A stretch of DNA of 64,000 bases from positions 229,570 through 293,569 of the forward strand of contig JAGRDY010000029.1 in assembly GCA_020446815.1 (NCBI GenBank). The letters are read 5' to 3'. Positions 1 through 20,890 of this stretch are shown piece after piece (within the stretch, counting starts at the first letter, position 1; each line of letters begins with the position of its first letter). This DNA comes from Paracoccaceae bacterium. GTDB taxonomy: Bacteria; Pseudomonadota; Alphaproteobacteria; Rhodobacterales; Rhodobacteraceae. The position numbers were made by a program, and so were the translations under genes. The notes under the pieces were generated by a model that made no database searches, had not been told where the DNA came from, and saw nothing but the letters and a program-made list of their open reading frames with translations.

Positions 1-695
1 TCGACATCGCCCATGTAGTGATGCAACAGCACATAGGCCGTTCCGGGCGAATAGACGCCAAGACCCGTGCCGATGATGCCCGAGCCGGCGAGATGCGCCT
101 TGATCAGGTCACTTTGGAAATGTTCATCGAGGAAATCGCCGATGGACAGGGTCCAGAAGCGCAGGGTTTCGGCCAGTTCGCGCCGTCCCAGGCCATGCGC
201 CTTGCGGATCAGGAACAGAAGTTCGCCCATATCGCGCGGCCTCAGCGACGCCGGATCGGGCGCGTTGCGCAACAGGAACGGCCGGATGAACCGGCACTGG
301 CGCATCACGGTCTGGCTGAAACGCGCATAGGCATCGGCATCCGCCGGGCTGTGGCGCGCCATTTCGCGGCGCAGCGCGTCGTGATCCGAAAAATAGGCGA
401 AATAATCCCCGTCGCGCGTGAAGCTGGCCCCGCCTTCGTAGGGGATCACCTGAAGGCCGAAGCGCGGCAGTTCGAGATCGCGGACGATTTCGCGGCGCAG
501 GAGCGAGCAGACATAGGAACAGTTGGAATAGGTCCAGCCTTCGTGCAGCGACCGGCTGACCGCGGCGCCGCCGACCCAGTCGTTCTTTTCGACGACCAGA
601 ACCCTGAGCCCCGCGCGCGCGAGGTAGCACGCGGCGGTCAGCCCGTTATGCCCCGCCCCGGCGATGATCGCGTCATATCTGTCGTGCCGGCTCAT
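1..695 (-). CDS. FAD-dependent oxidoreductase, phytoene-dehydrogenase-like (3' end outside window)
   Basis: This gene runs off the left edge, so about 231 N-terminal residues are visible. They begin [18 protein letters not shown], a Rossmann FAD-binding motif (GAGHNG) within the first 20 residues, followed by an acidic/VGGAA segment ([12 protein letters not shown]) typical of the COG1233 phytoene desaturase-like flavoproteins. Those enzymes oxidise C-C or C-N bonds using bound FAD. The start at 695 directly precedes the Rossmann fold. The gene is transcribed away from the TetR gene at 859 and shares the intergenic palindrome at 754-767 with it, which suggests common control. The family assignment is firm. 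The substrate is unknown; the context suggests a methylated-amine intermediate, which is inference only. Confidence 0.8.
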
Positions 696-753
696 CGCCC
701 ATTCTCCGTTTCAGGCAAACTCTAGGAGAACCGGGCGGCACAGTAAATCATTT

Positions 754-767
754 TTTGAGCGCTCAAA
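754..767. promoter_or_regulatory. palindromic operator, site 1 of 4 (TetR-type)
   Basis: A perfect 14-bp palindrome, TTTGAGCGCTCAAA, lies between the divergent FAD oxidoreductase and tetR genes. The same core recurs at 7597-7608, 10961-10972 and 15521-15532, always upstream of genes of the same island. Regulators of the TetR family usually bind palindromes of about this size next to their own gene. Binding by the product of 859-1509 is inferred. Confidence 0.65.
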
Positions 768-858
768 TAAACTTTCCGGGGCTGACAGTATTCGCGATTT
801 GTGAAACAACGGTGCCAAACGCGGCGGCAGGATCGGGCGGGTAGCGGATGATGATCGG

Positions 859-1509
859 ATGACGGAGCAGAACGTTCAGGCCACAAGGCCCAGAAGGGAA
901 CGCAAGGAAAACGCCGACATGCGGCGGCGCCAGCTTCTCGATGCGGCCCAGCGCTCGATCGTTCGCAACGGCCTGGCGAAAACCACATTGGCGACCGTGG
1001 CGCACGAGGCGGGGCTTTCGCAAGGGGTGGCGGTGTTCTACTACAAGTCCAAGAACGGGCTGCTGGTGGCGGCGCTCGAAGATCTCTACCAGAAATACGA
1101 GGCCAACTGGCGCAAGGCGGTCGACGAGGCCGGGGACGATCCGAAAGACCGGCTCTGGGCGCTGATCGAGGCCGATTTCAATGAGGACATCTGCAACGCG
1201 GAATCGCTGTCGATCTGGTTCGCGTTCTGGGGCGAGCAGAATTTCACGCCCCAGTATGCCAGCATAACCCAACAGTTCGACCTGAACCGGGGGGGCGCCA
1301 TCCGCGAGATATGCCGCGCCTTTTTCCCCGACGACCAGGCGGCGGCTGCCGAAGCTGTCGCGGATTGGATCGACACGCTCACCGATGGCTACTGGCAGCG
1401 CATGCATCTATTTCCCGAGGCATCCCCAAAGGAAACCGCGCTTGCGGGAACCCGGGCTTTTCTGGCCCGGATACTGCCGGATCATTTCCGTACCGAACGC
1501 GCCGGATAG
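859..1509 (+). CDS. TetR-family transcriptional regulator, BetI-like
   Basis: The 216-residue protein has an N-terminal TetR helix-turn-helix (about residues 20-70: RRRQLLDAAQRSI, then VAHEAGLSQGVAVFYYKSKNGLL), which closely resembles BetI in the recognition helix region. The C-terminal part contains the IWFAFWGE segment typical of the BetI ligand-binding domain. BetI-type repressors sense choline or related quaternary amines and usually repress neighbouring genes. The ATG at 859 follows an AT-rich promoter region holding a perfect palindrome (754-767), and the gene is divergent from a flavoprotein gene. The same palindrome occurs at three other promoters in the next 15 kb, so I infer that this protein is the local regulator of the island. 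It is not BetI itself, because no betA or betB genes are visible nearby. Confidence 0.88.
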   Translation: MTEQNVQATRPRRERKENADMRRRQLLDAAQRSIVRNGLAKTTLATVAHEAGLSQGVAVFYYKSKNGLLVAALEDLYQKYEANWRKAVDEAGDDPKDRLWALIEADFNEDICNAESLSIWFAFWGEQNFTPQYASITQQFDLNRGGAIREICRAFFPDDQAAAAEAVADWIDTLTDGYWQRMHLFPEASPKETALAGTRAFLARILPDHFRTERAG

Positions 1510-1528
1510 CCGCCATCCGGCCTGCCGC

Positions 1529-2537: not shown

Positions 2538-3560
2538 ATGAGAAAAGCTATCGGTCTCGCGCTAGGGCTGGCGCTTCTGGGAACCGCTGCCGACGCCGAA
2601 GGCAAGCTGGCGCTCTATAATTGGGGCGACTATATCAACCCGCTCATCTTGAAGAAATTCAGCGACGAGACCGGCATCGAAGTCAGTCTCGACACCTATT
2701 CCTCGAACGAGGAGATGCTGGCCAAGATCCAGGCCGGCGCCACGGGTTATGACATCATCTTTCCGTCCGTCCACATGCACGACATCATGATGAAGCTCGG
2801 CCTGCTGGAAAAGACCGACATCAATCAATCCCCCGGTTTCGAGAACATCGACCCCGCGACCTTCCGTTCGCAAGAAGACCCCAAGTCGGAATACTGTCTG
2901 CCCTATGCTTTCGGGACCGTGGGCATATTCTACAACGAGGACATCACCGGCCCGATCACCGGCTGGGCGGATTTTTTCAATATTCCCGAAAAGACAGGGG
3001 CCAAGATCACTCTCCTGGATGACATGCGCGAGGTCATGGCCATCGGTCTTTTCATGACCGGACATTCGATCAACTCGACCGACCCGGAAGAGATACAGGA
3101 GGCGACGGACTACATCCTGTCGAAAAAACCGGCCGTGTCCGCATTCACCTACGAATCGCCGACCCTGCTGCTTTCGAATGATATTGCCGCCGCGCATTTC
3201 TTCGTCGGCGGGCATGTGTATTACGTCGACAAGCCGAACATCAAATATGTCATCCCCAAGGAAGGTGCGACGCTTTACCAGGAAGACATGTGCATGTTGA
3301 AGACAGCGCCAGACAAGGCAGAGGCCAAGCGTTTCATGGAGTTCTACCTGCGCCCCGAAATCGCCGCGCTGAACGTGGACCAGCAGTTCAACGGATCGGC
3401 CAACGTGCCGGCGCGCGAACTGGTTGCCGATTACATCAGGAACGATCCCACCATCACCCTGCCCCCCGAAACGTTGAAGCGGGTGCAGACCTTCGTCGAT
3501 CTTGGCAAGGCGCTGAAGCTTTACGACCGGGCCTGGAACACGATCCGCACCGCGCAATAG
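2538..3560 (+). CDS. ABC importer substrate-binding protein, PotD/PotF type
   Basis: The 340-residue periplasmic protein starts at the ATG at 2538, preceded by GGGAGAGG. An upstream in-frame start at 2496 lacks such a site. The first 20 residues (MRKAIGLALGLALLGTAADA) are a Sec signal peptide with an Ala-x-Ala-like cleavage site and no lipobox cysteine. The mature protein opens with LALYNWGDYINP, the hallmark of the PotD/PotF spermidine/putrescine-binding family, whose Trp and Tyr residues cage amines. It is the first gene of an operon with an ATPase, two permeases and a P1-family peptidase. Polyamine is the family substrate. Given the surrounding methyltransferases, a methylated amine is equally possible (inference). 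Confidence 0.9.
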   Translation: MRKAIGLALGLALLGTAADAEGKLALYNWGDYINPLILKKFSDETGIEVSLDTYSSNEEMLAKIQAGATGYDIIFPSVHMHDIMMKLGLLEKTDINQSPGFENIDPATFRSQEDPKSEYCLPYAFGTVGIFYNEDITGPITGWADFFNIPEKTGAKITLLDDMREVMAIGLFMTGHSINSTDPEEIQEATDYILSKKPAVSAFTYESPTLLLSNDIAAAHFFVGGHVYYVDKPNIKYVIPKEGATLYQEDMCMLKTAPDKAEAKRFMEFYLRPEIAALNVDQQFNGSANVPARELVADYIRNDPTITLPPETLKRVQTFVDLGKALKLYDRAWNTIRTAQ

Positions 3561-3601
3561 CGCATCGCGGGCTCTGGCGGGCGGCAACTTCGGGGCAGGA
3601 A

Positions 3602-4669
3602 ATGGCATTGTTGGAAATCCGCGGCGCGCGGCGCATCTTCACTACACCCGAGGGCGGCAAGGTCACCGCCCTGGACAGGGTCGACCTGAACGTTGACGAG
3701 AATGAATTCGTCACGCTTCTTGGCCCTTCGGGTTGCGGCAAGACCACGCTCTTGCGCGCGATTTCGGGATTCGAGATGCTCGATGGCGGCACGGTGCGAC
3801 TGGAAGGCGCCGATCTGTCGAAGCTCGCTCCGTTCCGCCGGCCGATCAACACGGTGTTCCAGAGCTATGCGCTTTTCGGGCATATGAGCGTGGCCCGAAA
3901 TGTGGGCTACGCACTTGAGGTGCGCGGCGTTGACCGCGCCGCGCGCGAGCGCAAGGTAAGCGATGCGCTGGAAACCGTCGGGCTGTCGGACATGGGCAGC
4001 CGCCGCCCGTCGCAGCTTTCCGGCGGGCAGCGCCAGCGGGTCGCGCTTGCCCGGGCGATCATCGCCGAACCCCGGCTGCTGTTGCTGGACGAGCCACTAT
4101 CGGCCCTGGACCGCAACCTGCGCCAGCAGATGCAGCTTGAACTGAAAGCGCTTCAGGCCCGGCTGGGCATCGCCTTCATCTTTGTCACCCATGACCAGGA
4201 GGAGGCCCTGACCATGTCCGACCGGGTGGTTGTGATGCGTGAGGGCCGGATCGAGCAGATCGGCACCCCGCGCGAAATATACCGCCATCCGCGCAACCGC
4301 TTCGTTACCGAATTCATCGGCGAGACCAATATCTTCGCGCTTACCGTCGACCGGATCGAAGGCGATCTGGCGCGGGCCAGGACCGCCGAGGGCACCTGCC
4401 TGAGCTTGCCCGCGGCGGGGCGCAGCCGCGGCGAGGCGGTGACGGCGGTGCTGCGCCCCGAGAGCTTGCACCCCGGCGCCGAAGGCATCGCCGGTACAGT
4501 GATGCGGTCGGTCTATCTGGGCTCCGATCTCGTGATCTTTGTACGCCCCGAAGCGGGAGGCGCCGAAATTCGCGTCACCACGCGCGACGGCGCCGATGCA
4601 CCAATGACCGGTGATGCGATCAATCTGGCCTACGATCCGGCGGTGATCCACATTCTGGAGGATCGGTGA
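3602..4669 (+). CDS. ABC importer ATPase, PotA type
   Basis: The 355-residue ATPase powers import through the permeases encoded next to it. Visible motifs are Walker A (GPSGCGKTTLL, about residue 40), the Q-loop in NTVFQSYALFGHM, the signature LSGGQRQRVALARA, Walker B (LLLLDEPLSALD) and the switch histidine in FVTHDQEEALTMSD. A C-terminal TOBE-like regulatory region follows (about 280-355), as in PotA/MalK relatives. The ATG at 3602 is preceded by GGGGCAGGA. A longer reading frame from 3290 overlaps the binding-protein gene and is not credible. The gene overlaps the next permease by one base (TGATG), which indicates translational coupling. Confidence 0.93.
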   Translation: MALLEIRGARRIFTTPEGGKVTALDRVDLNVDENEFVTLLGPSGCGKTTLLRAISGFEMLDGGTVRLEGADLSKLAPFRRPINTVFQSYALFGHMSVARNVGYALEVRGVDRAARERKVSDALETVGLSDMGSRRPSQLSGGQRQRVALARAIIAEPRLLLLDEPLSALDRNLRQQMQLELKALQARLGIAFIFVTHDQEEALTMSDRVVVMREGRIEQIGTPREIYRHPRNRFVTEFIGETNIFALTVDRIEGDLARARTAEGTCLSLPAAGRSRGEAVTAVLRPESLHPGAEGIAGTVMRSVYLGSDLVIFVRPEAGGAEIRVTTRDGADAPMTGDAINLAYDPAVIHILEDR

Positions 4670-5553
4670 TGGCCCTTCGCCGCGACTCGGTGGTTCTTGG
4701 CGTGTTGCTGGCGCCGGTGACGATCTTTCTTGGCGTTTTCTTTCTGGTCCCGCTTCTGATAATCGCGGTCTTTTCGTTTCTCACGCCCGGCCTTTATGGT
4801 GGCGTCGAATGGTCGTTTTACCACTGGAACTACGGCCGCATCTTCGGCTGGGCCGACGGTATCGAGGAAATATACGAGCCGGTCTATCTGCAGATCCTTT
4901 TCCGGTCGCTGGCGTTCGGAGTGCTGACGGTGGCGCTGTGCCTGGTGCTGTGCTATCCGGTGGCGTTCTGGGTCGCGCGTCTGCCGGAACGCGCGCGGCT
5001 CTTTTTCCTGTTCCTGGTGGCATTGCCGTTCTTTTCCAGCCTGATCGTGCGGCTTTATGCCTGGCTTCTGATCCTGAAGCCTTCCGGGGTCCTGAACGAG
5101 ACCCTGATTGCGCTGCACATCATCCGCGAACCGATCGAGCTTCTTTATACCCCTGCCGCCGTGGTGCTGGGCATGGTTTATGTGATGGTGCCGTTCATGT
5201 TTCTTCCGCTTTATGCCGCGATCGACAATCTCGACCGGTCGCTGGTCGAAGCCTCGATGGATCTTGGCGCGAACCGGCGGCAGACCTTTCTGAAGGTGAT
5301 CCTGCCGCAGACCATTCCCGGCATCATCGGCGGCTCCGTGATCGTCTTCATCCCTTCGGTCGGCAACTTCGTGGTGCCTGATGTCCTTGGGGGCGCGAAG
5401 GGGCTGATGGTCGGAAACCTGGTCGAGCAGCAGTTTCTTTCGGCGCGCAACTGGCCCTTTGGTTCGGCGCTGTCGATGCTGATCATGTCGGTGGTGCTGG
5501 CGGTTCTCCTGCTGGCCACGGCACGGGCCCGCAAGGCGGGAGGCCAGGCATGA
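4669..5553 (+). CDS. ABC importer permease, PotB type
   Basis: The 294-residue inner-membrane protein has about six hydrophobic segments, starting with LGVLLAPVTIFLGVFFLVPLL. It carries the binding-protein-dependent permease EAA motif (LVEASMDLGANRRQTFLKVILP, about residues 190-210) that docks on the ATPase. The ATG overlaps the ATPase stop codon (TGATG). A GTG immediately upstream is the alternative start. It forms a heterodimeric channel with the product of 5550-6392. It belongs to the PotB/HisM-like branch used for polyamine- and opine-type substrates. Confidence 0.92.
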   Translation: MALRRDSVVLGVLLAPVTIFLGVFFLVPLLIIAVFSFLTPGLYGGVEWSFYHWNYGRIFGWADGIEEIYEPVYLQILFRSLAFGVLTVALCLVLCYPVAFWVARLPERARLFFLFLVALPFFSSLIVRLYAWLLILKPSGVLNETLIALHIIREPIELLYTPAAVVLGMVYVMVPFMFLPLYAAIDNLDRSLVEASMDLGANRRQTFLKVILPQTIPGIIGGSVIVFIPSVGNFVVPDVLGGAKGLMVGNLVEQQFLSARNWPFGSALSMLIMSVVLAVLLLATARARKAGGQA

Positions 5554-6392
5554 CCCCGCGTGTCGCACAGATGGGGCTTGGGGCCTTTTCGCTGCTTTTC
5601 TTCGCCTTCATCTATGCCCCGCTGCTGATCATCATCGTTTATTCGTTCAACTCGAACCCGGTGAACATGATGTTATGGGATCACTTCACGCTGGAGTGGT
5701 ATACCGGGCTTTTCGGGCTGAGCGAGCGCGGCCCCGAGATCGGCGACCAGAACCGGTCGCTCTATCTGGAAAGCACCGACCAGATGCTTCACGCGCTGCG
5801 AACCTCGCTGACCGTCGCGGCCTTTACCACCACCATTGCCACTGTCGTCGGTACCGCGACCGCGATTGCGCTGAACCGTTTTCGCTTTCGCGCACGGCGC
5901 TTCTACAATGGTTTCATGCTGCTGCCGATGATGATGCCCGATATCGTGCTCGGCATCGGCCTGCTGATCTTCTTCGTCACCATCGGCCTGAACCTTTCGA
6001 TTGTGACCATCATCATCGGCCATTGCACGTTTCTGATTTCCTATGTCTTCATCGTCGTGCAGGCGCGCATCGCCGGGATCGACCCGGCGCTGGAGGAGGC
6101 CTCGGCCGATCTCGGCGCCAGCGAGTGGGTGACGTTGCGCAAGGTTCTGTTGCCGCAACTGGCGCCCGGTATCCTGGGCGGCGCGCTGCTGGCCTTCGTG
6201 ATCTCGATGGACGATCTGGTGATCACCTATTTCATTGCCGGAACCGAAAGCACCACGCTGCCCGTGTTCATCTTCGGGATGATCCGCCGCGGCGTGAAGC
6301 CCGAAATCAACGCCATAGCCACGCTGATGATCCTCGCCTCGGTGATCATTGCCGGGTTTGGCCTTTGGCTGCGCGCCAGAAAGACTGACTGA
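5550..6392 (+). CDS. ABC importer permease, PotC type
   Basis: This 280-residue permease starts within the previous gene (ATGA overlap). It shows multiple membrane segments, an N-terminal FIYAPLLIIIVYSFNSN as in PotC, and the EAA loop (LEEASADLGASEWVTLRKVLLPQ, about residues 180-200). With the preceding gene it makes the transmembrane channel of the importer. The MDDLVITYFIAG segment near residue 225 is characteristic of PotC-like proteins. The stop codon at 6392 is one base from the ATG of the peptidase gene, so all five genes are probably co-transcribed. Confidence 0.92.
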   Translation: MTPRVAQMGLGAFSLLFFAFIYAPLLIIIVYSFNSNPVNMMLWDHFTLEWYTGLFGLSERGPEIGDQNRSLYLESTDQMLHALRTSLTVAAFTTTIATVVGTATAIALNRFRFRARRFYNGFMLLPMMMPDIVLGIGLLIFFVTIGLNLSIVTIIIGHCTFLISYVFIVVQARIAGIDPALEEASADLGASEWVTLRKVLLPQLAPGILGGALLAFVISMDDLVITYFIAGTESTTLPVFIFGMIRRGVKPEINAIATLMILASVIIAGFGLWLRARKTD

Positions 6393-6393
6393 G

Positions 6394-7503
6394 ATGCCCA
6401 CCCGCCCACGCGCCCGCGGCCTTGGCCTGCCGTTTCCCGGAACCACCGGACCGCAAAATGCGATCACCGACATTGCGGGGTTGAGCGTGGGTTTCTGCAC
6501 GCTCACCGATACCGCGCAAAAGATGCGGACCGGGGTGACAGCCATCCTGCCGCGCCCGGAGCGCGAGGCCCGCCCGGTCTGGGCGGGGCAGTACACGTTG
6601 AACGGCAACGGCGAAATGACCGGGACTCACTGGGTCAATGACGCGGGCTACTTTCTTGGCCCCGTGATGATCACCAATACCCATGGCGTCGGCGCGGTGC
6701 ACAGTGGCGCGACGCGCTGGATGCTTGACCATTACGCCGACCATTTCAGGGGCGAGCACCACGCATGGGCCATGCCGGTCGTCGCGGAGACCTATGACGG
6801 CGTGCTCAATGACATCAACGCCATGTTCGTTCGCCCCGAACACGCGATCGCGGCGCTTGAGGCGCGTTCGACGGGGCCCGTCGCCGAAGGCTCGGTCGGA
6901 GGCGGCAACGGCATGATCTCCTACGAATTCAAGGCCGGCACCGGCACATCGTCGCGTATCGTGACGCTTGGCGGGCACTGCTGGACGATGGGCGCACTTG
7001 TCCAGGCCAATCACGGTCTGCGGCCCTGGCTGTCGGTTCTTGGCCGGCCGGTGGGGCGGACGATGACCGAAGGCCGGCTGCTTGAACAGGAACTCGGCTC
7101 CATCATCGTGATCCTCGCGACGGATGCGCCGCTATCGGGACTGGCGCTGCGCCAGCTGGCCAAGCGCGCGGCAATCGGTATCGGGCGCGGCGGGACCCCC
7201 GGGGGCAACAACTCGGGCGATATCTTCCTGGCGCTGTCCACCGCCGACCCCAGGCCGATGCCCTGTGCCGCCCCGGCCCTGGCCACCCGGCAGGAGCTCA
7301 ACATGGAAATGATCGACCCGCTTTATCTGGCGGCCGTCGAGGCGATCGAGGAAGCGGTAATCAACGCCATCGTGGCCGGCGAGGACACGGTCACGGTAAA
7401 GCCCGAAGGCCGGGTTTGCCGGGCAATCGATACCGGGCGGCTTGTCGAAGCCTTCCGGCAGGACAGGGCCGACAGCGGCAGCGGCACGCCGATCGGGCGA
7501 TGA
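6394..7503 (+). CDS. P1-family peptidase (DmpA/BapA-like aminopeptidase)
   Basis: The 369-residue product belongs to the self-cleaving P1 N-terminal-nucleophile hydrolases, which remove N-terminal amino or beta-amino acids from small amides and peptides. The N-terminus (ITDIAGLSVGFCT) and the central SVGGGNGMISYEFKAGTGTSSR match the family. The segment GRGGTPGGNNSGDIFLALST holds the expected autoprocessing site and nucleophile, Ser near residue 274 in NNSGD. The ATG at 6394 is one base after the upstream permease stop; a longer frame would overlap the permease. As the last gene of an importer operon it may hydrolyse an amide-linked form of the imported compound (inference). No signal peptide is apparent, so a cytoplasmic location is likely. 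Confidence 0.88.
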   Translation: MPTRPRARGLGLPFPGTTGPQNAITDIAGLSVGFCTLTDTAQKMRTGVTAILPRPEREARPVWAGQYTLNGNGEMTGTHWVNDAGYFLGPVMITNTHGVGAVHSGATRWMLDHYADHFRGEHHAWAMPVVAETYDGVLNDINAMFVRPEHAIAALEARSTGPVAEGSVGGGNGMISYEFKAGTGTSSRIVTLGGHCWTMGALVQANHGLRPWLSVLGRPVGRTMTEGRLLEQELGSIIVILATDAPLSGLALRQLAKRAAIGIGRGGTPGGNNSGDIFLALSTADPRPMPCAAPALATRQELNMEMIDPLYLAAVEAIEEAVINAIVAGEDTVTVKPEGRVCRAIDTGRLVEAFRQDRADSGSGTPIGR

Positions 7504-7596
7504 CCGGCGCTTGCCCGCGCACGCACGGCATGTCCGGCGGTTTCGCCGCCGGGCAGGCCCCCCCCCCGCGCAGGTGCGTGAATTCTACCTTTTTGT

Positions 7597-7608
7597 TGAA
7601 GCGCTCAG
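7597..7608. promoter_or_regulatory. operator, site 2 of 4, upstream of first mttB-like gene
   Basis: TGAAGCGCTCAG followed by an ATAAATTAATT flank matches 9 of 12 positions of the palindrome TTGAGCGCTCAA seen at three other island promoters. It also keeps the AT-rich right flank of sites 1 and 4. It lies about 70 bp before the start of the MttB-like gene at 7677. It is the most diverged of the four sites. Confidence 0.5.
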
Positions 7609-7676
7609 ATAAATTAATTGCCGGGGCGCTGGTGGCGGTGTTAGGCTCGGCGCGAAGATTGCAGATCGGATGAACC

Positions 7677-9242
7677 ATGCAGGCCAGACCACGCAAACCC
7701 CGCCGCGCGGGCGGCCGCGCCGCGCGCGTGGCGGTGCGCGAGGCGCCCGTATCCACCGCCCGCGCCGCCGTTCGCGCCGGGCTTGAAGGGGGTACCTACA
7801 ACCCCCTGGCGGGCCCGGATCTGGAGGCGATCCACCGCGCCGCGCTGACGATCCTCGAAGATGTGGGGATTGCCGATGCGACCCAAGAGGTGACCCAACT
7901 GGCCGTGGCCAAGGGATGTTTCGTCAATGCCCATGGCAGGCTGAGCTTTCCGCGCGCCCTGGTCGAGGACACGCTCACCCTCGCGGCGCGGCAATACACG
8001 ATCTTCAGCCGCGATCCGGCGCATGCCGATATCGAGGTGGGCGGCAGCAAGGTGAATTACTGCACCAGCGGCGAAGCGGTCTCGATCCTCGATTACGAGC
8101 GCCGCAGCTATCGCCCCTCGACCCTGGCCGATCTTTACGACACGGCCCGCGTCGTCGATGCGCTGCCCAATATTCACCAGTTCGGGCAGACGGTCGTGCC
8201 GACCGAAATCACCGATCTGATCGAGCATGACCTCAACGTGGTCTATGCAGTTCTCGCCGGTACCGCGAAGCCGGTCGAACATACCTTCAACACCGTCCGC
8301 TCGCTGCCCGCCGCGCTGGAAATCTATGCCATGGTCGCGGGTGGTGAAGCGCGTTTCCGCGAGCGGCCGTTCGTCAGCTTCGGCGGCTGCCCGATCGTGT
8401 CGCCGCTGCGGTTCGCACAGGAAAACCTCGATGTGCTGGTGGCGACAAGCCGCCTGGGGCTGGTCAACGACATCGCCATCGCGCCGCAATCGGGGGCAAC
8501 GGCGCCGTCTTATCTTGCCGGATCGCTGGTTCAGGTGACCGCCGAGGCGCTGGCCTGCCTGTGCGTCGTCAACATGGTGCGCCCCGGTTGCCCGATGTCC
8601 TTCGCCGCCTGGCCGTTCTCGGTTGATCTGCGCACCGGCGCCTTTGCCGGGGGATCGGCCGAAGTGGCGGTGTCGATGGCGGCGATCGCCCAGATCGGGC
8701 GCTTTTACGATCTGCCGACCACCGTCGCGGCCTCGATGTCGGACGCCAAGATGCCCGATGCGCAGATGGGCTATGAAAAAGGCATCACTTCGGTCGTCGC
8801 GGGCCTTGCCGGGGCGAATCGCGTGCTCGAATCGGCGGGGATGATGGCCAGCCTGATGGGCTGTTCGTTCGAGGCGCTGGTGATCGACAACGACATGCTG
8901 GGAATGGCGCAGCGGGTGGTGCGCGGCATCGAGGTGAACGACGAGACGCTCAGCGTCGCGGCGATCAGGAACGCCGTGCTTGGCGAGGGGCACTATCTGG
9001 GTGCCGCCGATACGCTGAAATCCATGGAAACCGAATATGTCTACCCCCAGACCGCCGACCGCACGTCGCGGCAGGTGTGGATGGACGCGGGCGCGAAAAC
9101 CATGGACGAACGCGCCCACGAGACCGCCGGCCGGCTGCTGGCCGAACATTTCCCGCAGGCGATCCCGGCAAAGGTTGACGCGGCCATCCGCGATCGGTTC
9201 CCGATCAGGCTGCCAAGGTCGCGGATGGGCCTGGCGGATTAG
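7677..9242 (+). CDS. MttB-family (non-pyrrolysine) amine methyltransferase, copy 1
   Basis: The 521-residue protein belongs to the trimethylamine methyltransferase (MttB) superfamily of TIM-barrel enzymes, which transfer a methyl group from a methylated amine to a corrinoid cofactor. Recognisable segments are the N-terminal YNPLAGPDLEAIHRAALTIL, the glycine-rich core (FVSFGGCPIVSPL, GAFAGGSAEVAVSMAA) and the C-terminal GEGHYLGAADTLKSMETEY. The frame is open throughout, with no in-frame TAG, so it is a non-Pyl member, as in MtgB-type glycine betaine methyltransferases. The basic, Arg-rich first 30 residues look unusual; a later start is possible, but none is better supported. It is preceded by operator site 2 and converges with a second paralogue. 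The substrate is not identifiable from sequence. Confidence 0.88.
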   Translation: MQARPRKPRRAGGRAARVAVREAPVSTARAAVRAGLEGGTYNPLAGPDLEAIHRAALTILEDVGIADATQEVTQLAVAKGCFVNAHGRLSFPRALVEDTLTLAARQYTIFSRDPAHADIEVGGSKVNYCTSGEAVSILDYERRSYRPSTLADLYDTARVVDALPNIHQFGQTVVPTEITDLIEHDLNVVYAVLAGTAKPVEHTFNTVRSLPAALEIYAMVAGGEARFRERPFVSFGGCPIVSPLRFAQENLDVLVATSRLGLVNDIAIAPQSGATAPSYLAGSLVQVTAEALACLCVVNMVRPGCPMSFAAWPFSVDLRTGAFAGGSAEVAVSMAAIAQIGRFYDLPTTVAASMSDAKMPDAQMGYEKGITSVVAGLAGANRVLESAGMMASLMGCSFEALVIDNDMLGMAQRVVRGIEVNDETLSVAAIRNAVLGEGHYLGAADTLKSMETEYVYPQTADRTSRQVWMDAGAKTMDERAHETAGRLLAEHFPQAIPAKVDAAIRDRFPIRLPRSRMGLAD

Positions 9243-9314
9243 GGTGCGGCGCGTTCAAATGGAAATGTTCGGGCGCCAGGCGCGCGGATAGAAACACGGA
9301 CCGAGACGCGGACA

Positions 9315-9344
9315 GGCACGCGGCCGCCCGCAAAGGCGCGTGCC
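9315..9344. terminator. hairpin between convergent mttB-like genes
   Basis: The arms GGCACGCG (9315-9322) and CGCGTGCC (9337-9344) form an 8-bp perfect stem around a 14-nt loop, in the 147-bp gap between two convergent genes. There is no clear T-tract, so this is a plausible bidirectional terminator only. Confidence 0.35.
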
Positions 9345-9389
9345 CGTCACTTACGCGACAGGCTGGTGCTTCGGATCGAACGCGACATG

Positions 9390-10960: not shown

Positions 10961-10972
10961 TTGAGCGCTTAA
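10961..10972. promoter_or_regulatory. operator, site 3 of 4, upstream of second mttB-like gene
   Basis: TTGAGCGCTTAA is an 11-of-12 match to the palindrome TTGAGCGCTCAA, embedded in an AT-rich patch (GTTTGA before, AAAAAAATTT after). It sits between the leftward mttB-like gene and the rightward importer genes, so it could control either or both. Confidence 0.6.
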
Positions 10973-10983
10973 AAAAATTTTGA

Positions 10984-13106: not shown

Positions 13107-14210
13107 ATGGCGCCGGGCACAAACAAGGGCATCATCCAGCTCAGCGATGTCACCCGAACCTTCGGGGCGTTTTACGCGCTCAGGAAGATCAACGCCGAGA
13201 TCCGCGAAGGCGAGTTCTTTTCACTTCTCGGCCCTTCGGGGTGCGGCAAGACGACATTGCTGCGTCTGATCGCAGGCTTCGACGAACCGACGTCGGGGGC
13301 GATCTCGATCGGTGGCAGGCCGATGGCCGGGATCGCGGCAAACAAGCGCCCCACCAACATGGTCTTCCAGAGCTATGCGATATTTCCGCATCTCAATGTC
13401 GCCGAAAATGTCGGATATGGGCTCACGACGCGCAAGCTTTCCAAAGCCGAGATCGCCGCCGAGGTCGAAAAGGCGCTGGCCATGGTCGATCTGCAAGGGT
13501 TCGGCGGGCGCGCCGCGCACGAGCTTTCGGGCGGCCAGCGCCAGCGCGTCGCCCTGGCGCGCGCGCTGGTCATGCGGCCCAAGGTGGTGTTGCTCGACGA
13601 ACCTCTGTCGGCGCTTGACAAGAAATTGCGCGATCAGATGCAAGTCGAGCTGCGCGCGTTGCAGCAATCCATCGGCATCACCTTCATTCTGGTGACTCAT
13701 GACCAGGAAGAAGCGTTGATCATGTCGGACCGGATCGCGGTCATGTTCGAAGGTGAAATCGCGCAGATGGCGTCGCCCGAACAGCTTTACCGCCGCCCCC
13801 GGACGAAGCGCGTGGCATCCTTCATCGGTGTGATGAACTTTCTGCCGGCGACATTCGTCGCGCAGGGCGATGACGGCGTCACGGTCGACATCACCGCCCT
13901 GGGGCGGGTGACGATACGTCCGGGCATGGTTCCCGAGGTTCTGAACCCGGCCACCATCGACACGATCGGGATCCGCCCCGAGATGCTGACCATCCTGTCG
14001 AACGATGCAGAACCGGCGGAACGCTCGGCCCGGGGCAGCGTTACCGGAACCTCCTATTACGGCGACATGACCTATTACACGGTGCAACTGGCCGGCGGCG
14101 GCGATCCCGTCACCATCTCCATGCGCAATACCGCAGGGCGCTCGGTCCTGCCGTCCGGCAGCCCGGTGACGGTGGGCTGGGGAGCCGAATCGGTCGTCCT
14201 TTTCGAATGA
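13107..14210 (+). CDS. ABC importer ATPase, PotA type (second system)
   Basis: The 367-residue ATPase shows Walker A (GPSGCGKTTLLRLIAG, about residue 40), the Q-loop NMVFQSYAIFPHLN, the signature LSGGQRQRVALARAL, Walker B (VVLLDEPLSALDKKL) and the switch histidine in LVTHDQEEALIMSD. A C-terminal TOBE-like region (about 285-365: GIRPEMLTI, SYYGDMTYYTVQL) completes the PotA/FbpC architecture. It energises the permease pair encoded directly upstream. The gene ends this operon, and its binding protein is encoded convergently at 14356-15420. Two strong hairpins follow in the gap. Confidence 0.93.
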   Translation: MAPGTNKGIIQLSDVTRTFGAFYALRKINAEIREGEFFSLLGPSGCGKTTLLRLIAGFDEPTSGAISIGGRPMAGIAANKRPTNMVFQSYAIFPHLNVAENVGYGLTTRKLSKAEIAAEVEKALAMVDLQGFGGRAAHELSGGQRQRVALARALVMRPKVVLLDEPLSALDKKLRDQMQVELRALQQSIGITFILVTHDQEEALIMSDRIAVMFEGEIAQMASPEQLYRRPRTKRVASFIGVMNFLPATFVAQGDDGVTVDITALGRVTIRPGMVPEVLNPATIDTIGIRPEMLTILSNDAEPAERSARGSVTGTSYYGDMTYYTVQLAGGGDPVTISMRNTAGRSVLPSGSPVTVGWGAESVVLFE

Positions 14211-14268
14211 CCAGCCGGGTCTGGCGCGGCCATGCTCCAGCGTATCGCAAGACCGCAACCGATACGAT

Positions 14269-14340
14269 GCCCGGCCTTCGCGATCAGACGAAAGCCGGGC
14301 GGGTGAATCGCGCCGCCGGACTTTCGGAGATCCGGTGGCG
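14269..14340. terminator. two tandem hairpins between convergent importer genes
   Basis: The first hairpin pairs GCCCGGCCTTCG (14269-14280) with CGAAAGCCGGGC (14289-14300), with one mismatch and an 8-nt loop. The second pairs CGCCGCCGGA (14311-14320) with TCCGGTGGCG (14331-14340). They fill the 145-bp gap between the ATPase and the convergent binding-protein gene, and probably terminate transcription from both sides. Confidence 0.6.
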
Positions 14341-14355
14341 CGGCGACAGGCAGTC

Positions 14356-15420
14356 TCAGAAACCGGCCTTGATAAGCTCGAACTCGGCGATCATCTTTTC
14401 GCGCAACTCCGCGGGAAGCGGCGATTGCCACAGGGTGTTCTTGCGGATGTCGTCGGTCGAATCGAGGCCTGCGGCGACCAGATCCTCCTGCGGCATCGCC
14501 GCCATCGCGGCCGCGTTGCTATGGCCATACCCCCACGCCGTCACCAGGTAGTTCGCCGTTTCCGGTTCCAGCCAGGCGTTGATGAAATCGTAGAACCTGT
14601 CCACAGACCCCGGGCCATCGGCAAGTTCGGTATAGCCGCACACCCAGCTCGAAATGCCCTCGTCGGTATCCTTTTTGACGGCGATGGGATAGCCTTCGCT
14701 GCTCATGGTCCAGTAGGTTTCGTTCCAGGCCCAGGCCAGATAGACCTCGCCGCTTTGCATCAGCTGCGCCAGCGATGCGCCATCGGCCCAATAGGCCCGG
14801 ACGTTCGGATGCACCTTGCGCAGGAAATCCGAGGCGGCGCGGAACTGTTCGTCAGTGGCGTTGGCCCAGTCCTTCACACCGGTAGCCAGGAACGCGAGCG
14901 CATAGGCGTCATCGACATTGTCGCCGATCGACACCCGGCCCGCATGTTTGGGGTCGGCGAATGCCTGAAGCGACTGCACATCGGCCTCGCTCAGGAGGTC
15001 GGTGTTATAGGTGGTCATCGTATAACCCCAGTCGATCGGAACGAAATAATATTCGCCGTTCTTCTGGTAGGCGGGAATGTCGCGGAACGACGGTTCCAGA
15101 TCGTCCCAGCGCGCGATCCGGCTGGTATCGAGCGGCCTGAGCAGCCCTGCCTCGATCCATTTCGGGATCGATTGCGAACAGGGATGCGCGGCATCGGCGC
15201 GAAACCCCGCGCGAAGCTTCTGAAACGCTTCTTCCTCATCCCCGAAGAAGGCGTAGGTCGGGCTGTCGCCGTGCTCGTCTATGTAATCGGTGAAAAAGTT
15301 CGGGTCCTCGTATCCGGCCCAGTCGAAAACCGTCAACTCGGGGTCTGCGGCAAGGGCCGCGCCGGCGGCAAAGGCTGCCGCTGCGATGGCACCTGCCGCT
15401 GTTATCGTGAAGTGTCGCAT
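14356..15420 (-). CDS. ABC importer substrate-binding protein, PotD type (second system)
   Basis: The 354-residue periplasmic protein starts at 15420, after GGGAG, rather than at the upstream in-frame 15513. It has a clear signal peptide (MRHFTITAAGAIAAAAFAAG, ending ALAA-D). The mature part begins ELTVFDWAGYEDPNFF, the PotD-like ligand-cage strand, and continues with SDFLRKVHPNVRAYWADG. It is probably the receptor for the permeases and ATPase at 11404-14210, although it is encoded on the opposite strand. Its promoter region carries operator site 4, shared with the divergent trimethylamine-dehydrogenase-like gene. This physically links uptake to a catabolic flavoenzyme. The substrate is unknown. 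Confidence 0.9.
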   Translation of the reverse strand: MRHFTITAAGAIAAAAFAAGAALAADPELTVFDWAGYEDPNFFTDYIDEHGDSPTYAFFGDEEEAFQKLRAGFRADAAHPCSQSIPKWIEAGLLRPLDTSRIARWDDLEPSFRDIPAYQKNGEYYFVPIDWGYTMTTYNTDLLSEADVQSLQAFADPKHAGRVSIGDNVDDAYALAFLATGVKDWANATDEQFRAASDFLRKVHPNVRAYWADGASLAQLMQSGEVYLAWAWNETYWTMSSEGYPIAVKKDTDEGISSWVCGYTELADGPGSVDRFYDFINAWLEPETANYLVTAWGYGHSNAAAMAAMPQEDLVAAGLDSTDDIRKNTLWQSPLPAELREKMIAEFELIKAGF

Positions 15421-15520
15421 GTTTTTCTCCCTGCTAGCCTGGCGCGGTCCATTCTGCGCGCACGTCCGGACCGGGTCCACGGAAAAGTTAGGCGGGAAGA
15501 GTGCTTGACTCAAGACTTAA

Positions 15521-15532
15521 TTGAGCGCTCAA
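15521..15532. promoter_or_regulatory. operator, site 4 of 4, between divergent binding protein and dehydrogenase
   Basis: This is a perfect 12-bp palindrome, TTGAGCGCTCAA, with the same AAATAA right flank as site 1. It lies 31 bp before the dehydrogenase start (15563) and 101 bp before the divergent binding-protein start (15420), so one bound dimer could control both. Its left half could also serve as a -35-like element for the rightward promoter. Confidence 0.65.
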
Positions 15533-15562
15533 ATAATTTTCAGGCAATATCGGCAGGTAAAG

Positions 15563-17596
15563 ATGCGTGATCCACGACATGACATATTGTTCGAGCCGTT
15601 GAGCATCGGCCCGGTCACCACCGCGAATCGTTTCTATCAGGTGCCCCACTGCTCCGGTATGGGGTGGCGGCGCCCGCAGATGCTTGCGGCGATGCGGGGC
15701 ATCAAGGCCGAAGGCGGTTGGGGTGTGGTCAACACCGAATACTGTTCGGTGCATCCGACATCGGATAACGACGCCTTCCCCTTTGCCGCCCTGTGGGATG
15801 ATGGCGACATTCGCGCCCATCGGCTGATGACGGATGCCGTCCATGAACACGGCGCCCTGGCGGGGGTCGAGTTGTGGCTTGGCGGGGGCATGGTGATGAA
15901 CCTTGCCACCCGCCTGCCGCCGCTGGGCCTGCGCAACCGGCCGCAGACCGACAGCGGCGTCTTCCACCCCGGCCAGACCCGCAAGATCGATCGCGACGAC
16001 ATCCGCGACATCCGCCGCTGGCATCGCGATGCCGCGCGCCGCGCGGTCGACGCCGGATTCGACATCATTTATGTCTATGCGACGCATGGCTACCTGCTGT
16101 CGGAATTCCTCGACGCCGACGTCAACGATCGCACCGACGAATATGGCGGCAGCCTCGAAAACCGCGTGCGCATCGTGCGCGAATTGATCGAGGACACCCG
16201 CGAGGCGACAGGTGGCCGGATCGCCGTGGCGACACGCTTCAGCGTCGATCTGGCCGACCCCGAGACCTACGACGCTTTCGGCCTGCTCGCAGACCTGCCC
16301 GACCTGTGGGATCTGACGGTGCCAGATTACGGGATCGAGATGGGCACGAGCCGTTTCGTCAAGGAGGCCGCCCTTGTCGACAGCATCGGGCGCGCCAAAT
16401 CCCTGACCTCGAAGCCCGTCGTGGCGGTCGGGCGCTTTACCTCGCCCGACACCATGGCGCAGGCGCTCCGGGCCGGCCATCAGGACCTGATCGGGGCCGC
16501 GCGCCCGTCGATCGCGGACCCGTTCTTGCCGCGCAAGATCGAAGAGGGGCGCTATGACGACATCCGCGAATGTATCGGCTGCAACATCTGCTATGCGCAC
16601 GATTCGTCGGGGGTGCCGCTGCGCTGTACGCAAAACCCGACGATGGGCGAGGAATGGCGGCTGGGCTGGCACCCCGAACGGGCCGGACGCACCGAAAAGC
16701 CCGCCAGGGTGCTGGTGGTCGGCGCCGGCCCGGCCGGGCTCGAGGCGGCGCGGGTTCTGGGCGAGCGCGGCCATGCGGTGATGCTGGCCGAGGTCGGGCG
16801 CGATCTGGGCGGCCGGGTCCGCCGCGAGGCTCGCCTGCCGGGCCTTGGCGAATGGCTCCGGGTGCGCGACTGGCGGCTCGGGCAGATCGAAAAGCTCGCC
16901 TCGGTTGAGATCTTCCGCGAAAGCCTGATGGCGGCTTCCGACATTTCCGATCTCGGGGCCGATCACATTCTGATCGCTACCGGCGCAAAATGGGCGACCG
17001 ATACAATCGGCCGACACTCGGCCACCGGACTGACCCGTGAAGCGCCGGGGATGGTCGCCAGCGCCGAGACGATCCTGAACCATCAGCATGTGGACGCGGA
17101 TCATGTCGTGATCTATGACGACGATCACTATTACATGGGCACGGTCCTTGCGTTGCATCTGCGCCAGGCAGGACACCGGGTGACATTGGTCACGCCCGCC
17201 GGAAGACCCTGTGAATACGGGGTTTTCACCGGCGAAATTCACAGCTCGAATGCCGCGCTTGTCGAAGCGGGCGTCGATATCATCACCAATCGGATGATCA
17301 CCGCGGTCGAGCCGGGCCGCGCCGAAATGGAATGCGTGTTCGCGGGCCGCCGGTCGTCCCTTGACTGCGATCTGGTCATTCCGGTCTGCCGCCGCCTGCC
17401 GGTCACGACACTTTACGACGGGCTGCGCGCGCTCATGGACGGGCCCGCGGCCGCGGGGATCCGATCGGTTCGCCGGATCGGCGATGCGGAAGCCCCCGGC
17501 ACGATCGCGGCGGCGGTCTATTCCGGCCACCGCGCGGCGATGGAACTGGGATGCGAGGTCGATTCGACAAGGATTTACGGGCGCCGCGACCGCTGA
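15563..17596 (+). CDS. trimethylamine-dehydrogenase-like iron-sulfur flavoprotein
   Basis: The 677-residue protein has the full architecture of trimethylamine dehydrogenase: an N-terminal FMN TIM barrel (about 1-350), a 4Fe-4S site (Cys337, Cys340, Cys343, Cys355) and a C-terminal FAD/ADP-binding region (GAGPAGLEAA at about 387). Family enzymes oxidatively demethylate tertiary amines. Cys30 in NRFYQVPHC matches the 6-S-cysteinyl-FMN cysteine of Methylophilus TMADH. Tyr60 and the Tyr172/His175 pair are also kept. Two of three aromatic-bowl tryptophans appear absent: the residue aligned with Trp355 is Asp347, and the Trp264 region is shortened. Trimethylamine is therefore an unlikely substrate; dimethylglycine- or N-methyl-amino-acid-like compounds are alternatives. 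The start at 15563 (after CAGGTAAAG) is preferred to a TTG inside the operator. Confidence 0.88.
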   Translation: MRDPRHDILFEPLSIGPVTTANRFYQVPHCSGMGWRRPQMLAAMRGIKAEGGWGVVNTEYCSVHPTSDNDAFPFAALWDDGDIRAHRLMTDAVHEHGALAGVELWLGGGMVMNLATRLPPLGLRNRPQTDSGVFHPGQTRKIDRDDIRDIRRWHRDAARRAVDAGFDIIYVYATHGYLLSEFLDADVNDRTDEYGGSLENRVRIVRELIEDTREATGGRIAVATRFSVDLADPETYDAFGLLADLPDLWDLTVPDYGIEMGTSRFVKEAALVDSIGRAKSLTSKPVVAVGRFTSPDTMAQALRAGHQDLIGAARPSIADPFLPRKIEEGRYDDIRECIGCNICYAHDSSGVPLRCTQNPTMGEEWRLGWHPERAGRTEKPARVLVVGAGPAGLEAARVLGERGHAVMLAEVGRDLGGRVRREARLPGLGEWLRVRDWRLGQIEKLASVEIFRESLMAASDISDLGADHILIATGAKWATDTIGRHSATGLTREAPGMVASAETILNHQHVDADHVVIYDDDHYYMGTVLALHLRQAGHRVTLVTPAGRPCEYGVFTGEIHSSNAALVEAGVDIITNRMITAVEPGRAEMECVFAGRRSSLDCDLVIPVCRRLPVTTLYDGLRALMDGPAAAGIRSVRRIGDAEAPGTIAAAVYSGHRAAMELGCEVDSTRIYGRRDR

Positions 17597-17939: not shown

Positions 17940-18830
17940 TCAGGCCGTGAGCCCTTCCGGTTCGCTCAGCCCGTTGGCACGGCAGCATGAGGTTAGCGTG
18001 TTGGCCAGAAGACAGGCGATGGTCATCGGCCCCACACCGCCGGGCACCGGAGTGATAGCGCCCGCCACTGCGGCGCAGCTGGCAAATTCCGCATCTCCAA
18101 CAAGCATTTTCTTGCCACCCCGTTCAATGCGGTTGATACCGACATCGATAACGGTCGCCCCCGGTTTGACATAGTCGCCGGTGATCATTTCCGGGCGGCC
18201 GACGGCCGCCACCAGAATATCGGCGCGTTTGCAGACCTCGGGCAAATCCCTGGTGCGGCTATGGGCGATGGTCACCGTACAGCTATCGCCCAGCAACAGC
18301 TGCGCCATCGGCTTGCCAACGATATTGGAACGACCGACAACCACGGCATCAAGCCCCGACAATGTGCCGTGGTGATCACGCAGCATCATCAGGCAACCCA
18401 GAGGCGTGCAGGGCACCATGGATTTCTGTCCGGTGCCAAGGAGCCCGACGTTGGAAATATGAAACCCGTCAACATCCTTGGCCGGGTCGATTGAATTGAT
18501 GACCAGGTCGGAATTGAGGTGCTTGGGCAGCGGAAGCTGCACCAGAATGCCGTGCACCGCCGGATCGGCGTTGAGCGTGGCCACAAGCGCCAGCAGGTCG
18601 GCCTCAGACGTATCGGCGTCAAGCTTGTGTTCATAGGAATTCATCCCGGCTTCGACCGTCTGCCTGCCCTTGGAGCGGACATAGACTTCGGATGCAGGGT
18701 CTTCGCCAACCAGCACCACGGCAAGTCCGGGGACAATTCCGTGATCGGCCTTGAGGCGCGCAACATGTTCGGCCACCTGGCCACGAATCCTGGCGGCGAA
18801 TGCCTTGCCGTCGATGATCTTTGCCGTCAT
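17940..18830 (-). CDS. folD: bifunctional methylene-THF dehydrogenase / methenyl-THF cyclohydrolase
   Basis: The 296-residue cytoplasmic enzyme interconverts 5,10-methylene-, methenyl- and 10-formyl-tetrahydrofolate with NADP. Family signatures are visible: [14 protein letters not shown] with the catalytic lysine near residue 55, QLPLPKHL, the NADP-binding [14 protein letters not shown], and the C-terminal [15 protein letters not shown]. The ATG at 18830 is preceded by GAGGGG; upstream in-frame starts overlap the next gene. It lies 5 bp downstream of a chorismate-mutase gene and near fhs on the same strand. Together with Fhs it provides the C1-oxidation route from methylene-THF to formate that methylotrophic demethylation needs. 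Confidence 0.95.
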
Positions 18831-18835
18831 TCCCC

Positions 18836-19141
18836 TCACTCCTTGCCCAGCACCGTTTCTTCGCGCGCGATCGACCAATCGATCAGGATGCGCCAGAGGG
18901 TTTCGGCCAGTTCCGGCTCCAGCCCCCTATTCTTCGCGGTGGCGCGCACCCGCGCAACCACTTCCTCCACCCGCTCATTCACCCGCGCCGGCATCCCGAT
19001 GGCGGGCTTCAGTTGCGTCGCCCGGTCGATATAGCTTGTGCGTTCGGCCAGAAGCGCCACGAGTGCTGCGTCGATCTCGTCTATCGCTGCCCGCACCTCC
19101 AGCATGCTGTCGCATTCAGGCGCGGGTTTGGACACTGTCAT
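18836..19141 (-). CDS. chorismate mutase family protein (AroQ, PchB-like)
   Basis: The short 101-residue protein is a single all-helical AroQ-type chorismate mutase domain. The pattern [23 protein letters not shown], then a lysine in ATQLKPA and [15 protein letters not shown], matches the three-helix fold. The spacing resembles PchB (isochorismate pyruvate lyase) as much as true mutases. The start at 19141 (MTVSKPAPE) is used because the upstream extension is basic and lies in the gap after fhs. It sits between fhs and folD, apparently in one leftward transcript, an odd place for an aromatic-pathway enzyme. A pterin- or folate-related role cannot be excluded. Confidence 0.8.
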
Positions 19142-19213
19142 CCACTTGACTCCGTCAGACAGGAATGGGCGCTTCTTATCGCGCCCATTCCCGGTCTGCA
19201 ACGTGGCGTCGTG

Positions 19214-20890
19214 TCAGAACAGGCCCTCGACATCGCCCTTTTCATTCAACCGGATCACCTCGGCCGAAGGCTTGCGCGGCAGGCCCGGCATGGTCATGAT
19301 GGAGCCGCAGATGGCAACGATGAACCCCGCGCCGGCGGAAAGCCGCACTTCGCGTATTGGAACCGAGTGGCCAGTCGGTGCGCCGCGCACGTTCGGGTCG
19401 GTGGTAAAACTGTATTGCGTCTTGGCCATGCAGACCGGCAGATTGCCGTAACCCGCTTCTTCCCAGGCCTTGAGCTGGTCACGCACGGATTTGTCCGCCA
19501 GAACCTCGTCAGCATGATAGATCCGCTTGGCAATGGTTTCGATCTTCTGGAACAGGCCCATTTCGTCCGGGTAGAGGGGCGAGAAATTTGCCGAACCGCT
19601 ATCTGCAATTTCAACGACCTTGCGCGCCAGGTCTTCGGCACCCGCGCCGCCGTCGGCCCAATGCTTGCTCAGGATCGCTTCGGCACCCTGTTCGGCGACA
19701 TAGGCCTTGACGGCCTGCACTTCGGCTTCGGTGTCGGAATGGAAATGGTTGATCGCGACAACGACCGGCACACCGAAGCTTTTGACATTGGCGATGTGGC
19801 GGCCAAGGTTCGGGCATCCCTTTTTCACGGCGGCAACGTTTTCCGCGCCAAGATCGGCCTTGGCCACACCGCCGTTCATCTTCATTGCCCGCACCGTTGC
19901 CACGATGACTGTCGCCGATGGTTTCAGGCCCGCCTTGCGGCATTTGATATCGAAGAATTTTTCGGCCCCGAGATCGGCCCCAAAACCAGCCTCGGTCACG
20001 ACGTAGTCACCGAGTTTCAGCGCGGTCTTCGTAGCGATAACCGAATTGCAGCCATGGGCGATATTGGCGAAGGGGCCGCCATGCACGAAGGCCGGGTTGT
20101 TTTCGAGTGTCTGCACCAGGTTCGGTTGCATCGCATCCTTCAGCAGAACCGTCATCGCGCCATCGGCCTGGATATCGCGGGCATAGACCGGCGTCTTGGC
20201 GCGGGTATAGGCCACAACAATATCGCCAAGGCGCTTTTGCAGGTCTGCAAGGTCATTGGACAGGCAAAGGATCGCCATGACTTCGGATGCCACCGTAATG
20301 TCGAAACCTGTCTGACGCGGGAAACCATTGGCCACACCACCCAGATTCACCACGATATCGCGCAAGGCCCGGTCATTCATGTCCATAACCCGCCGCCAGC
20401 TGATCCGTCGTGCGTCGATATCCAGCTCGTTGCCCCAATAGATATGGTTGTCGATCATCGCGCTCAGCAGGTTATGCGCCGATGTGATCGCGTGAAAATC
20501 GCCGGTGAAATGCAGGTTCATTTCTTCCATCGGCACGACCTGGCTGTAGCCGCCGCCCGCGGCCCCGCCCTTCATGCCGAAATTCGGGCCGAGCGAAGCC
20601 TCACGGATACAGATCACCGCTTTTTTGCCGATCCGGTTCAGCCCGTCGCCAAGACCCACGGTGGTGGTGGTCTTGCCTTCGCCCGCAGGGGTGGGGTTGA
20701 TTGCGGTGACGAGGATCAGCTTGCCATCCTTGCGGTCCTTGAGCGCTTCGATGAAGGTCTGGCTGACCTTCGCCTTGTCATGTCCATAGGGCAGCAGATC
20801 TTCCGCCGGAATGCCCAGTTTGGCGCCAATATCCATGATCGGCTTTTTCTTCGCTTCACGCGCGATTTCGATATCAGTCTTGAAGGCCAT
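19214..20890 (-). CDS. fhs: formate--tetrahydrofolate ligase
   Basis: The 558-residue enzyme couples formate, THF and ATP to 10-formyl-THF, or runs in reverse to release formate and ATP. Full length is present, with the P-loop-like [18 protein letters not shown] (about 65-82), [20 protein letters not shown] (about 100-119), the HFTGDFHAI strand and the C-terminal [17 protein letters not shown]. The ATG at 20890 follows GGGAGAA. A perfect palindrome, TGGTATACCA, lies 27 bp upstream. Along with folD it completes a folate C1 module directly beside the methylated-amine island, giving the released methyl groups a plausible fate (inference). Confidence 0.96.

Follow-up and report, generated by a model that had tools for sequence, protein, structure and literature searches.

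Genes of the Locus

We analyzed a 64-kb stretch of DNA from a Paracoccaceae bacterium (contig JAGRDY010000029.1; "the window" hereafter means this whole stretch), in which two genes of MttB-family methyltransferases, MttB1 and MttB2, lie among genes for importers, flavoproteins, and regulators. The genome is 3.47 Mb in 37 contigs and 99.98% complete, and the right edge of the window is a contig end. Genes were called by codon usage together with Pfam and NCBIfam scans, and every gene named in an earlier, sequence-only reading of this DNA is present: two PotABCD-type importers, two non-pyrrolysine MttB proteins, a TMADH-like flavoprotein, TetR and RpiR regulators, folD, and fhs were all recovered. 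That reading had joined them into one contiguous system, which neighborhood comparison and operator-like sites do not bear out; the region is three units, a TetR regulon, an RpiR-PotDABC1-S58 unit, and a folD-fhs pair.

The TetR regulon contains genes for a class-III aminotransferase, a GcvT-like protein, FADox2, FADox1, TetR, MttB1, MttB2, PotBCA2, PotD2, and the TMADH-like flavoprotein. FADox1, FAD amine-oxidase-like by Pfam and 545 aa in full length, is cut by the window edge (1–695, reverse strand). It is the further FAD oxidoreductase of the sequence-only reading, which is indeed present as part of an aminotransferase–GcvT–FADox2–FADox1 operon lying mostly outside, to the left of the window (8895–14694 of locus L016), with uvrB next leftward. 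The TetR-family regulator (859–1509, forward; PF13977) is BetI-like, yet under both NCBIfam BetI cut-offs (112.8 versus 118 and 111.2 versus 201.3 bits). MttB1 (7677–9242, forward) and MttB2 (9390–10904, reverse) are followed by the importer genes PotB2-PotC2-PotA2 (11404–14210, forward), the solute-binding protein gene PotD2 (14356–15420, reverse), and the gene of the TMADH/histamine-dehydrogenase-like flavoprotein (15563–17596, forward).

The flavoprotein is of a two-domain type with a CxxCxxCx11C cysteine motif, and scores 547.4 bits with 1DJN and higher, 667.2 bits, with histamine dehydrogenase 3K30. Its ATG start at 15563 matches the start of an orthologue (L044); the query for structure and NCBIfam comparisons was 15566–17593, one residue short. 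The aminotransferase passes the cut-off of NF005447 (645.7 versus 618 bits), a model that names no function. The GcvT-like protein is nearest to the folate domain of trimethylamine N-oxide demethylase, which would suit the trapping of formaldehyde from FAD-dependent N-demethylation. A 104-codon open frame matching no Pfam family lies at 11019–11333 in front of PotB2, and the MttB2-PotB2 gap is much shorter in a Shimia locus (L201) than in the window.

Operator-Like Sites

Four operator-like sites were found. The first is located between FADox1 and TetR (749–772, with TTGAGCGCTCAA at 755–766), the second between PotD2 and the TMADH-like gene (15515–15538, with TTGAGCGCTCAA at 15521–15532), and the third, at 10955–10978 with TTGAGCGCTTAA at 10961–10972, is 57 bp upstream of MttB2 and also on the PotB2 side, where it precedes the short open frame mentioned above. 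The fourth, upstream of MttB1 at 7591–7614, is degenerate and was recognized by its matrix score. The exact TTGAGCGCTCAA palindrome occurs twice in the window against 0.02 expected, and copies with at most one mismatch occur three times against 0.15 expected, a number reached in 0 of 100 shuffles.

A 24-base matrix built from 21 distinct sites of relatives, with the window sites excluded, gave scores of 37.4, 35.1, 33.0, and 23.3 at 15515, 749, 10955, and 7591, respectively; the next non-overlapping score in the window was below zero (−3.8), and the best score in 15 further loci of the same genome, 228 kb together, was 4.0. When Rubellimicrobium and Shimia were also removed from the training, leaving 14 sites, the same four sites scored 37.1, 33.8, 32.6, and 25.3, the last being that at 7591, while the maxima of 100 simulated windows averaged 6.7 and the largest was 22.4. 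All of the four strong sites in the 64 kb fall in promoters of the TetR unit, and the scan of the window gave no strong site at RpiR-PotD1, folD, or fhs. Furthermore, sites are found upstream of Rieske genes in relatives (near 7.9 kb in L065–L067 and near 3.4 kb in L060). We infer that the TetR protein binds these sites, and the occurrence of like sites upstream of MttB1, MttB2, some relatives' Rieske genes, and the core favors a single inducer or a group of closely related ones.

Two Non-Pyrrolysine MttB Proteins

Both proteins pass the PF06253 cut-off of 25 bits (MttB1, 346.8; MttB2, 171.7) and fall below that of the pyrrolysine trimethylamine methyltransferase model TIGR02369 (383.1 and 195.4 bits; cut-off 525). 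The genome has 12 MttB-family (PF06253) genes, all without an internal stop. At the site of Pyl334, in the numbering of Methanosarcina barkeri MttB used in the consulted portion of PMC9842639, MttB1 has Met and MttB2 has Cys346. Pyrrolysine is ruled out by these residues and by the lack of an in-frame stop in any of the 12 paralogues. The Rfam family PYLIS_3 matches at 8736–8835 (47.2 bits) inside the MttB1 coding sequence, in a frame without UAG, so that this Rfam family seems to respond to mttB homology.

In a tree whose long branches were flagged by the program, the MttB2 clade is split off by a branch of length 2.21 with support of 100/100, and Cys occupies the Pyl334 site in 11/11 aligned members of the clade. 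In the same tree, with the same flag, six paralogues of the own genome (L020–L025) group with Desulfitobacterium hafniense MtgB 2QNE (100/98), and MttB1 and MttB2 are outside this glycine betaine methyltransferase group.

Corrinoid Partners Elsewhere in the Genome

The sequence-only reading found neither a corrinoid protein nor an activase, and suggested either that the missing components lie elsewhere or that the methyl acceptor differs. The absence applies to the window at most. Other contigs encode two corrinoid proteins with PF02607 and a single activase of the RACo/RamA type (679 aa), and the genome search, which found MtgC-like, MtgE-like, DUF1638, and RamA-type genes and an MtgD candidate, agrees with the first suggestion. 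A different acceptor, as far as it was argued from absent corrinoid genes, is rejected as an argument because the genes are elsewhere in the genome.

One corrinoid protein, MtgC-like, is encoded on C32 (L017) with a homocysteine S-methyltransferase, a DUF1638 protein, and a radical SAM protein. The protein on C21 (L050) is an MtgD candidate by its PF00809 and CdhD matches only; the adjoining gene had no Pfam or NCBIfam match at E 0.001, and MetF2 was not identified for this reason. The gene set of an MtgBCD system, i.e., a corrinoid protein, a pterin methyltransferase candidate, and a RamA-type activase, is thus present, and presumably the corrinoid protein and the activase are common to the twelve MttB-family genes. 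The second corrinoid protein (L019, 5048–7814 on C33) adjoins a UroD-like methyltransferase and a ketopantoate-hydroxymethyltransferase-like protein, in surroundings that by eye resemble ABC (ATP-binding cassette) transporter genes; it reads as a separate, putative corrinoid methyltransferase system.

Among relatives, MtgC was found in 13/13 genomes with MttB1 or MttB2 in the cluster and in 16/18 others, and a RamA-type gene in 12/13 and 16/18, respectively; the 18 others include L103, which has an MttB relative of 30% about 8 kb from FADox1. With such near-equal frequencies, the presence of MtgC and RamA fits the proposed system but is uninformative as a discriminating test.

Conservation of the Gene Set

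Genome contigs were scanned with FADox1 as query, which gave 103 related loci, and the best 80 were kept; in the 36 of the 80 spanning at least 20 kb, gene presence was scored by tblastn at more than 80 bits. FADox1, FADox2, and the GcvT-like gene occur in all of the 36 long loci, and at least one Pot-type gene in 32. A Rieske gene is found in 24 and an MttB gene in four, L103 having both, so that one or the other accompanies the core in 27 and neither is present in nine. In six of these nine (L052, L053, and L055–L058), MttB2 lies just past the stretch or, in the case of L057, on a different contig, at its end; the remaining long loci without MttB or Rieske gene are L069, L100, and L104. No match to the Rieske queries was found in positions 1–21000 of the window.

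MttB2 orthologues (E ≤ 1e-60) are present in 10 of 30 genomes searched, nine of them on the cluster contig and the tenth (G155) on another contig beside a Rieske gene; one genome (G156) additionally has a partial match elsewhere. The TMADH-like gene is in the clusters of all 10 MttB2 genomes, and among the 20 genomes without MttB2, where several stretches are short, it is in a single cluster, L061, which a contig end truncates. These counts are not independent because many of the holders are close relatives. MttB1 orthologues at 79% or above occur in 5/30 genomes. In Shimia, L201 has the order and orientation MttB1-MttB2-PotBCA2-PotD2-TMADH of the window, and L200 has the same arrangement as far as the stretch reaches, with a longer MttB1-MttB2 gap. 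In a sample of 149 genomes of the family, the own genome counted, MttB2 was found in two and an MttB1-like gene (E ≤ 1e-150) in three.

Several neighborhoods of related genes were seen besides. In Leisingera caerulea, a 250-kb plasmid (L032, 3701–14721) carries genes for TetR, PotBCAD, a TMADH-like protein, a Rieske protein, an MttB1-like protein, and a mandelate-racemase-family protein. A gene that by eye reads like an S-adenosylmethionine (SAM) methyltransferase (L052, 19795–20574) is in 11 of the 80 cluster loci, and no match to it was seen in positions 1–21000 of the window. On C4 (L029, 5324–14857), an MttB paralogue lies beside a large FAD/GcvT-like-looking protein; its neighbors look like what we take to be beta-hydroxyaspartate cycle genes (presumably bhcABCD), and genes similar to these neighbors occur near an MttB1 cluster in L046.

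Proposed Pathway and Alternatives

The unit is probably a catabolic regulon under TetR control, acting on an N-methylated, and likely quaternary, amine, which would be demethylated stepwise into folate one-carbon (C1) metabolism. Gene content, operator-like sites, conserved clustering, and core genes are observed; each reaction and the order of steps are proposed from the sequences. PotBCAD2 would import the methylated amine, and MttB1 and/or MttB2 would pass its methyl group to the shared corrinoid protein (MtgC, C32), which the RamA-type protein would keep active. The pterin-binding MtgD-like protein would then hand the methyl group to tetrahydrofolate. Oxidation of the remaining N-methyl groups may fall to the FADox1/FADox2/GcvT set together with the TMADH-like flavoprotein; formaldehyde would be trapped by the GcvT-like protein in the form of methylene-tetrahydrofolate, and the class-III aminotransferase may then take the freed amine. 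The C1 units would exit through the general folate pathway, including folD and fhs. Two types of Rieske oxygenase from the clusters of relatives were tested, and they match 3VCA and 4QUP, both of which we take to be stachydrine demethylase Stc2, and carnitine monooxygenase; a gene set shared by such oxygenases and MttB points to a quaternary amine. Uptake and demethylation of methylated amines, as the sequence-only reading had it, is the best reading of the TetR unit, to which the first transporter, PotDABC1, does not belong.

Several points weigh against this reading. MttB2 is very divergent, as its branch length tells, and its reaction may differ; its fold prediction reached a predicted local distance difference test (pLDDT) score of 31.7, giving no usable model. 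MtgC is no specific support because it also serves as part of split methionine synthase and is found in most of the other genomes as well, and one MttB2 genome (G172, an incomplete-looking assembly) had no RamA match. With up to two mismatches, TTGAGCGCTCAA occurs four times in the window against 2.72 expected, which is not significant; the support for the operators comes from the exact and one-mismatch sites and the matrix scores. No site above 20 was found in L069, L070, and L071, and only weaker ones in L117 (12.4) and L100 (16.9); L070, L071, and L117 are MttB1-type loci, yet have only weak sites of the matrix. A strict exclusion between MttB and Rieske genes is rejected, since clusters of the Leisingera type and the L117 type carry both. 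Finally, neither an MttB nor a Rieske gene occurs within 21.6 kb in L100 of Mesorhizobium denitrificans, where the core genes (aminotransferase, PotBCAD2, TetR, FADox1, FADox2, and GcvT) are present.

The last case fits another arrangement, to which we give a real but minor chance: the core alone may degrade a secondary or tertiary methylamine, and MttB and Rieske proteins may be add-ons through which different quaternary compounds converge on it. Which of MttB1, MttB2, and Rieske genes are present indeed differs from genome to genome. However, MttB1, MttB2, and some relatives' Rieske genes share the upstream site type of the core, which speaks for a common inducer or a few closely related ones. 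Going beyond the main reading, B12-dependent methyl transfer and oxygen-dependent Rieske demethylation might be evolutionarily interchangeable within one regulon for the same quaternary amine, with MttB2 representing a new branch of the MttB superfamily with an invariant Cys at the pyrrolysine position; we regard this extended proposal as unlikely.

Still less probable is that MttB2 bypasses the corrinoid protein and that the methyl group is received by its conserved Cys or by the GcvT-like protein. The invariance of that Cys, the long branch of MttB2, and the presence of the GcvT-like gene within the same regulon would be in line with such a reaction, but the tested relatives named in the consulted portion of PMC12478193 work through a corrinoid protein, and MtgC is present in 10/10 MttB2 genomes tested. 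It is similarly improbable that polyamines or other non-methylated amines are the compounds processed by this cluster, with MttB being incidental: the PotABCD-type importers, the histamine-dehydrogenase-like flavoprotein, the class-III aminotransferase, near polyamine and omega-amino transaminases, and PotD2, whose best solved-structure matches are polyamine-binding proteins, could be taken that way, but PotD2 is far below the PotD and PotF equivalog cut-offs (87.6 versus 582 and 59.8 versus 636), the GcvT-like gene recurs with the core, and most of the long loci have MttB or Rieske genes.

Neighboring Units

Between TetR and MttB1 lie the genes of an RpiR-family regulator (1563–2429, reverse), assigned to this second unit, the ABC importer PotD1-PotA1-PotB1-PotC1 (2538–6392, forward), and an S58 (DmpA/P1-type) peptidase (6394–7503, forward; PF03576, 337.8 bits). 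PotD1 is below the PotD and PotF equivalog cut-offs (179.5 versus 582 and 147 versus 636), and PotA1 passes the subfamily cut-off of TIGR01187 (360.8 versus 355.6). The S58 peptidase (E ≤ 1e-60) is found in 17 of the 149 family genomes at 18 places, the own included. Of the 17 other places, seven have PotB1 and PotC1 next to it with at least 60% identity and without MttB, and two have an RpiR match; MttB is within the 1.5-kb flank in the own genome only. PotDABC1-S58 is therefore rejected as a part of the cluster, given also its lack of a strong operator site, and the P1-type peptidase, which the sequence-only reading had included, goes with PotDABC1.

The same reading had included folD (17940–18830, reverse) and fhs (19214–20890, reverse; 910.1 bits). 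Of 12 same-genus relatives, 11 have folD, and fhs adjoins it in six of the seven same-genus regions examined, while the seventh runs into a contig end; matches to cluster genes were absent from all seven regions (18–20 kb each). The pair is rejected as cluster parts because it is adjacent without the cluster in the six regions; both are neighbors outside the cluster, and the folD product may serve it.

Comparison with Known Systems

The sequence-only reading presented the system as possibly undescribed. It is not wholly so, because its B12 core is already published (PMC12478193). A literature search on titles and abstract openings found no published account of this cluster or its substrate, nor did the searches turn up a description of the regulon, of the varying employment of MttB and Rieske genes across the best 80 of 103 loci, or of the very divergent Cys-bearing MttB2 clade. 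The case indicates that aerobic bacteria can carry many MttB-family genes, 12 in this genome, with the corrinoid gene elsewhere. The shared operator-like sites delimit a unit of two MttB genes, offering a defined gene set, a regulator, and an inducer to seek; its Rieske-bearing versions are a natural comparison between oxygen-dependent and B12-dependent demethylation, and MttB2 lets the role of the pyrrolysine position be probed in a protein without pyrrolysine.

In Ruegeria pomeroyi, according to the portion consulted, MtgC and MtgD are needed for methionine synthesis and glycine betaine demethylation, and further PF06253 genes are taken to serve other methylated compounds (PMC12478193). The present genome is like this MtgBCDE system in that PF06253 methyltransferases would be served by distant MtgC, MtgD, RamA, and DUF1638 proteins with transfer of methyl groups to tetrahydrofolate. 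It differs in that neither MttB1 nor MttB2 falls into the group of MtgB 2QNE, and in having 12 PF06253 genes compared with "up to seven" in that portion, among whose described features for R. pomeroyi a TetR regulon with an aminotransferase, a GcvT-like protein, and FAD oxidases does not appear. MtpB, MtcB, and MtyB of Eubacterium limosum are likewise non-pyrrolysine MttB proteins for different quaternary amines with a shared corrinoid protein (as cited in the same portion of PMC12478193); they are tested enzymes of an anaerobe, whereas MttB1 and MttB2 are predicted ones.

The GcvT-like protein has a GcvT-type folate domain in common with trimethylamine N-oxide demethylase (Tdm) and the DMSP demethylase DmdA, but is a stand-alone protein under the cut-offs of both (223.4 versus 1100 and 116.1 versus 410). 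Other genomes carry relatives of the carnitine monooxygenase CntA and of Stc2, presumably the name of 3VCA, within this gene set, whereas positions 1–21000 of the window gave no match to the Rieske queries.

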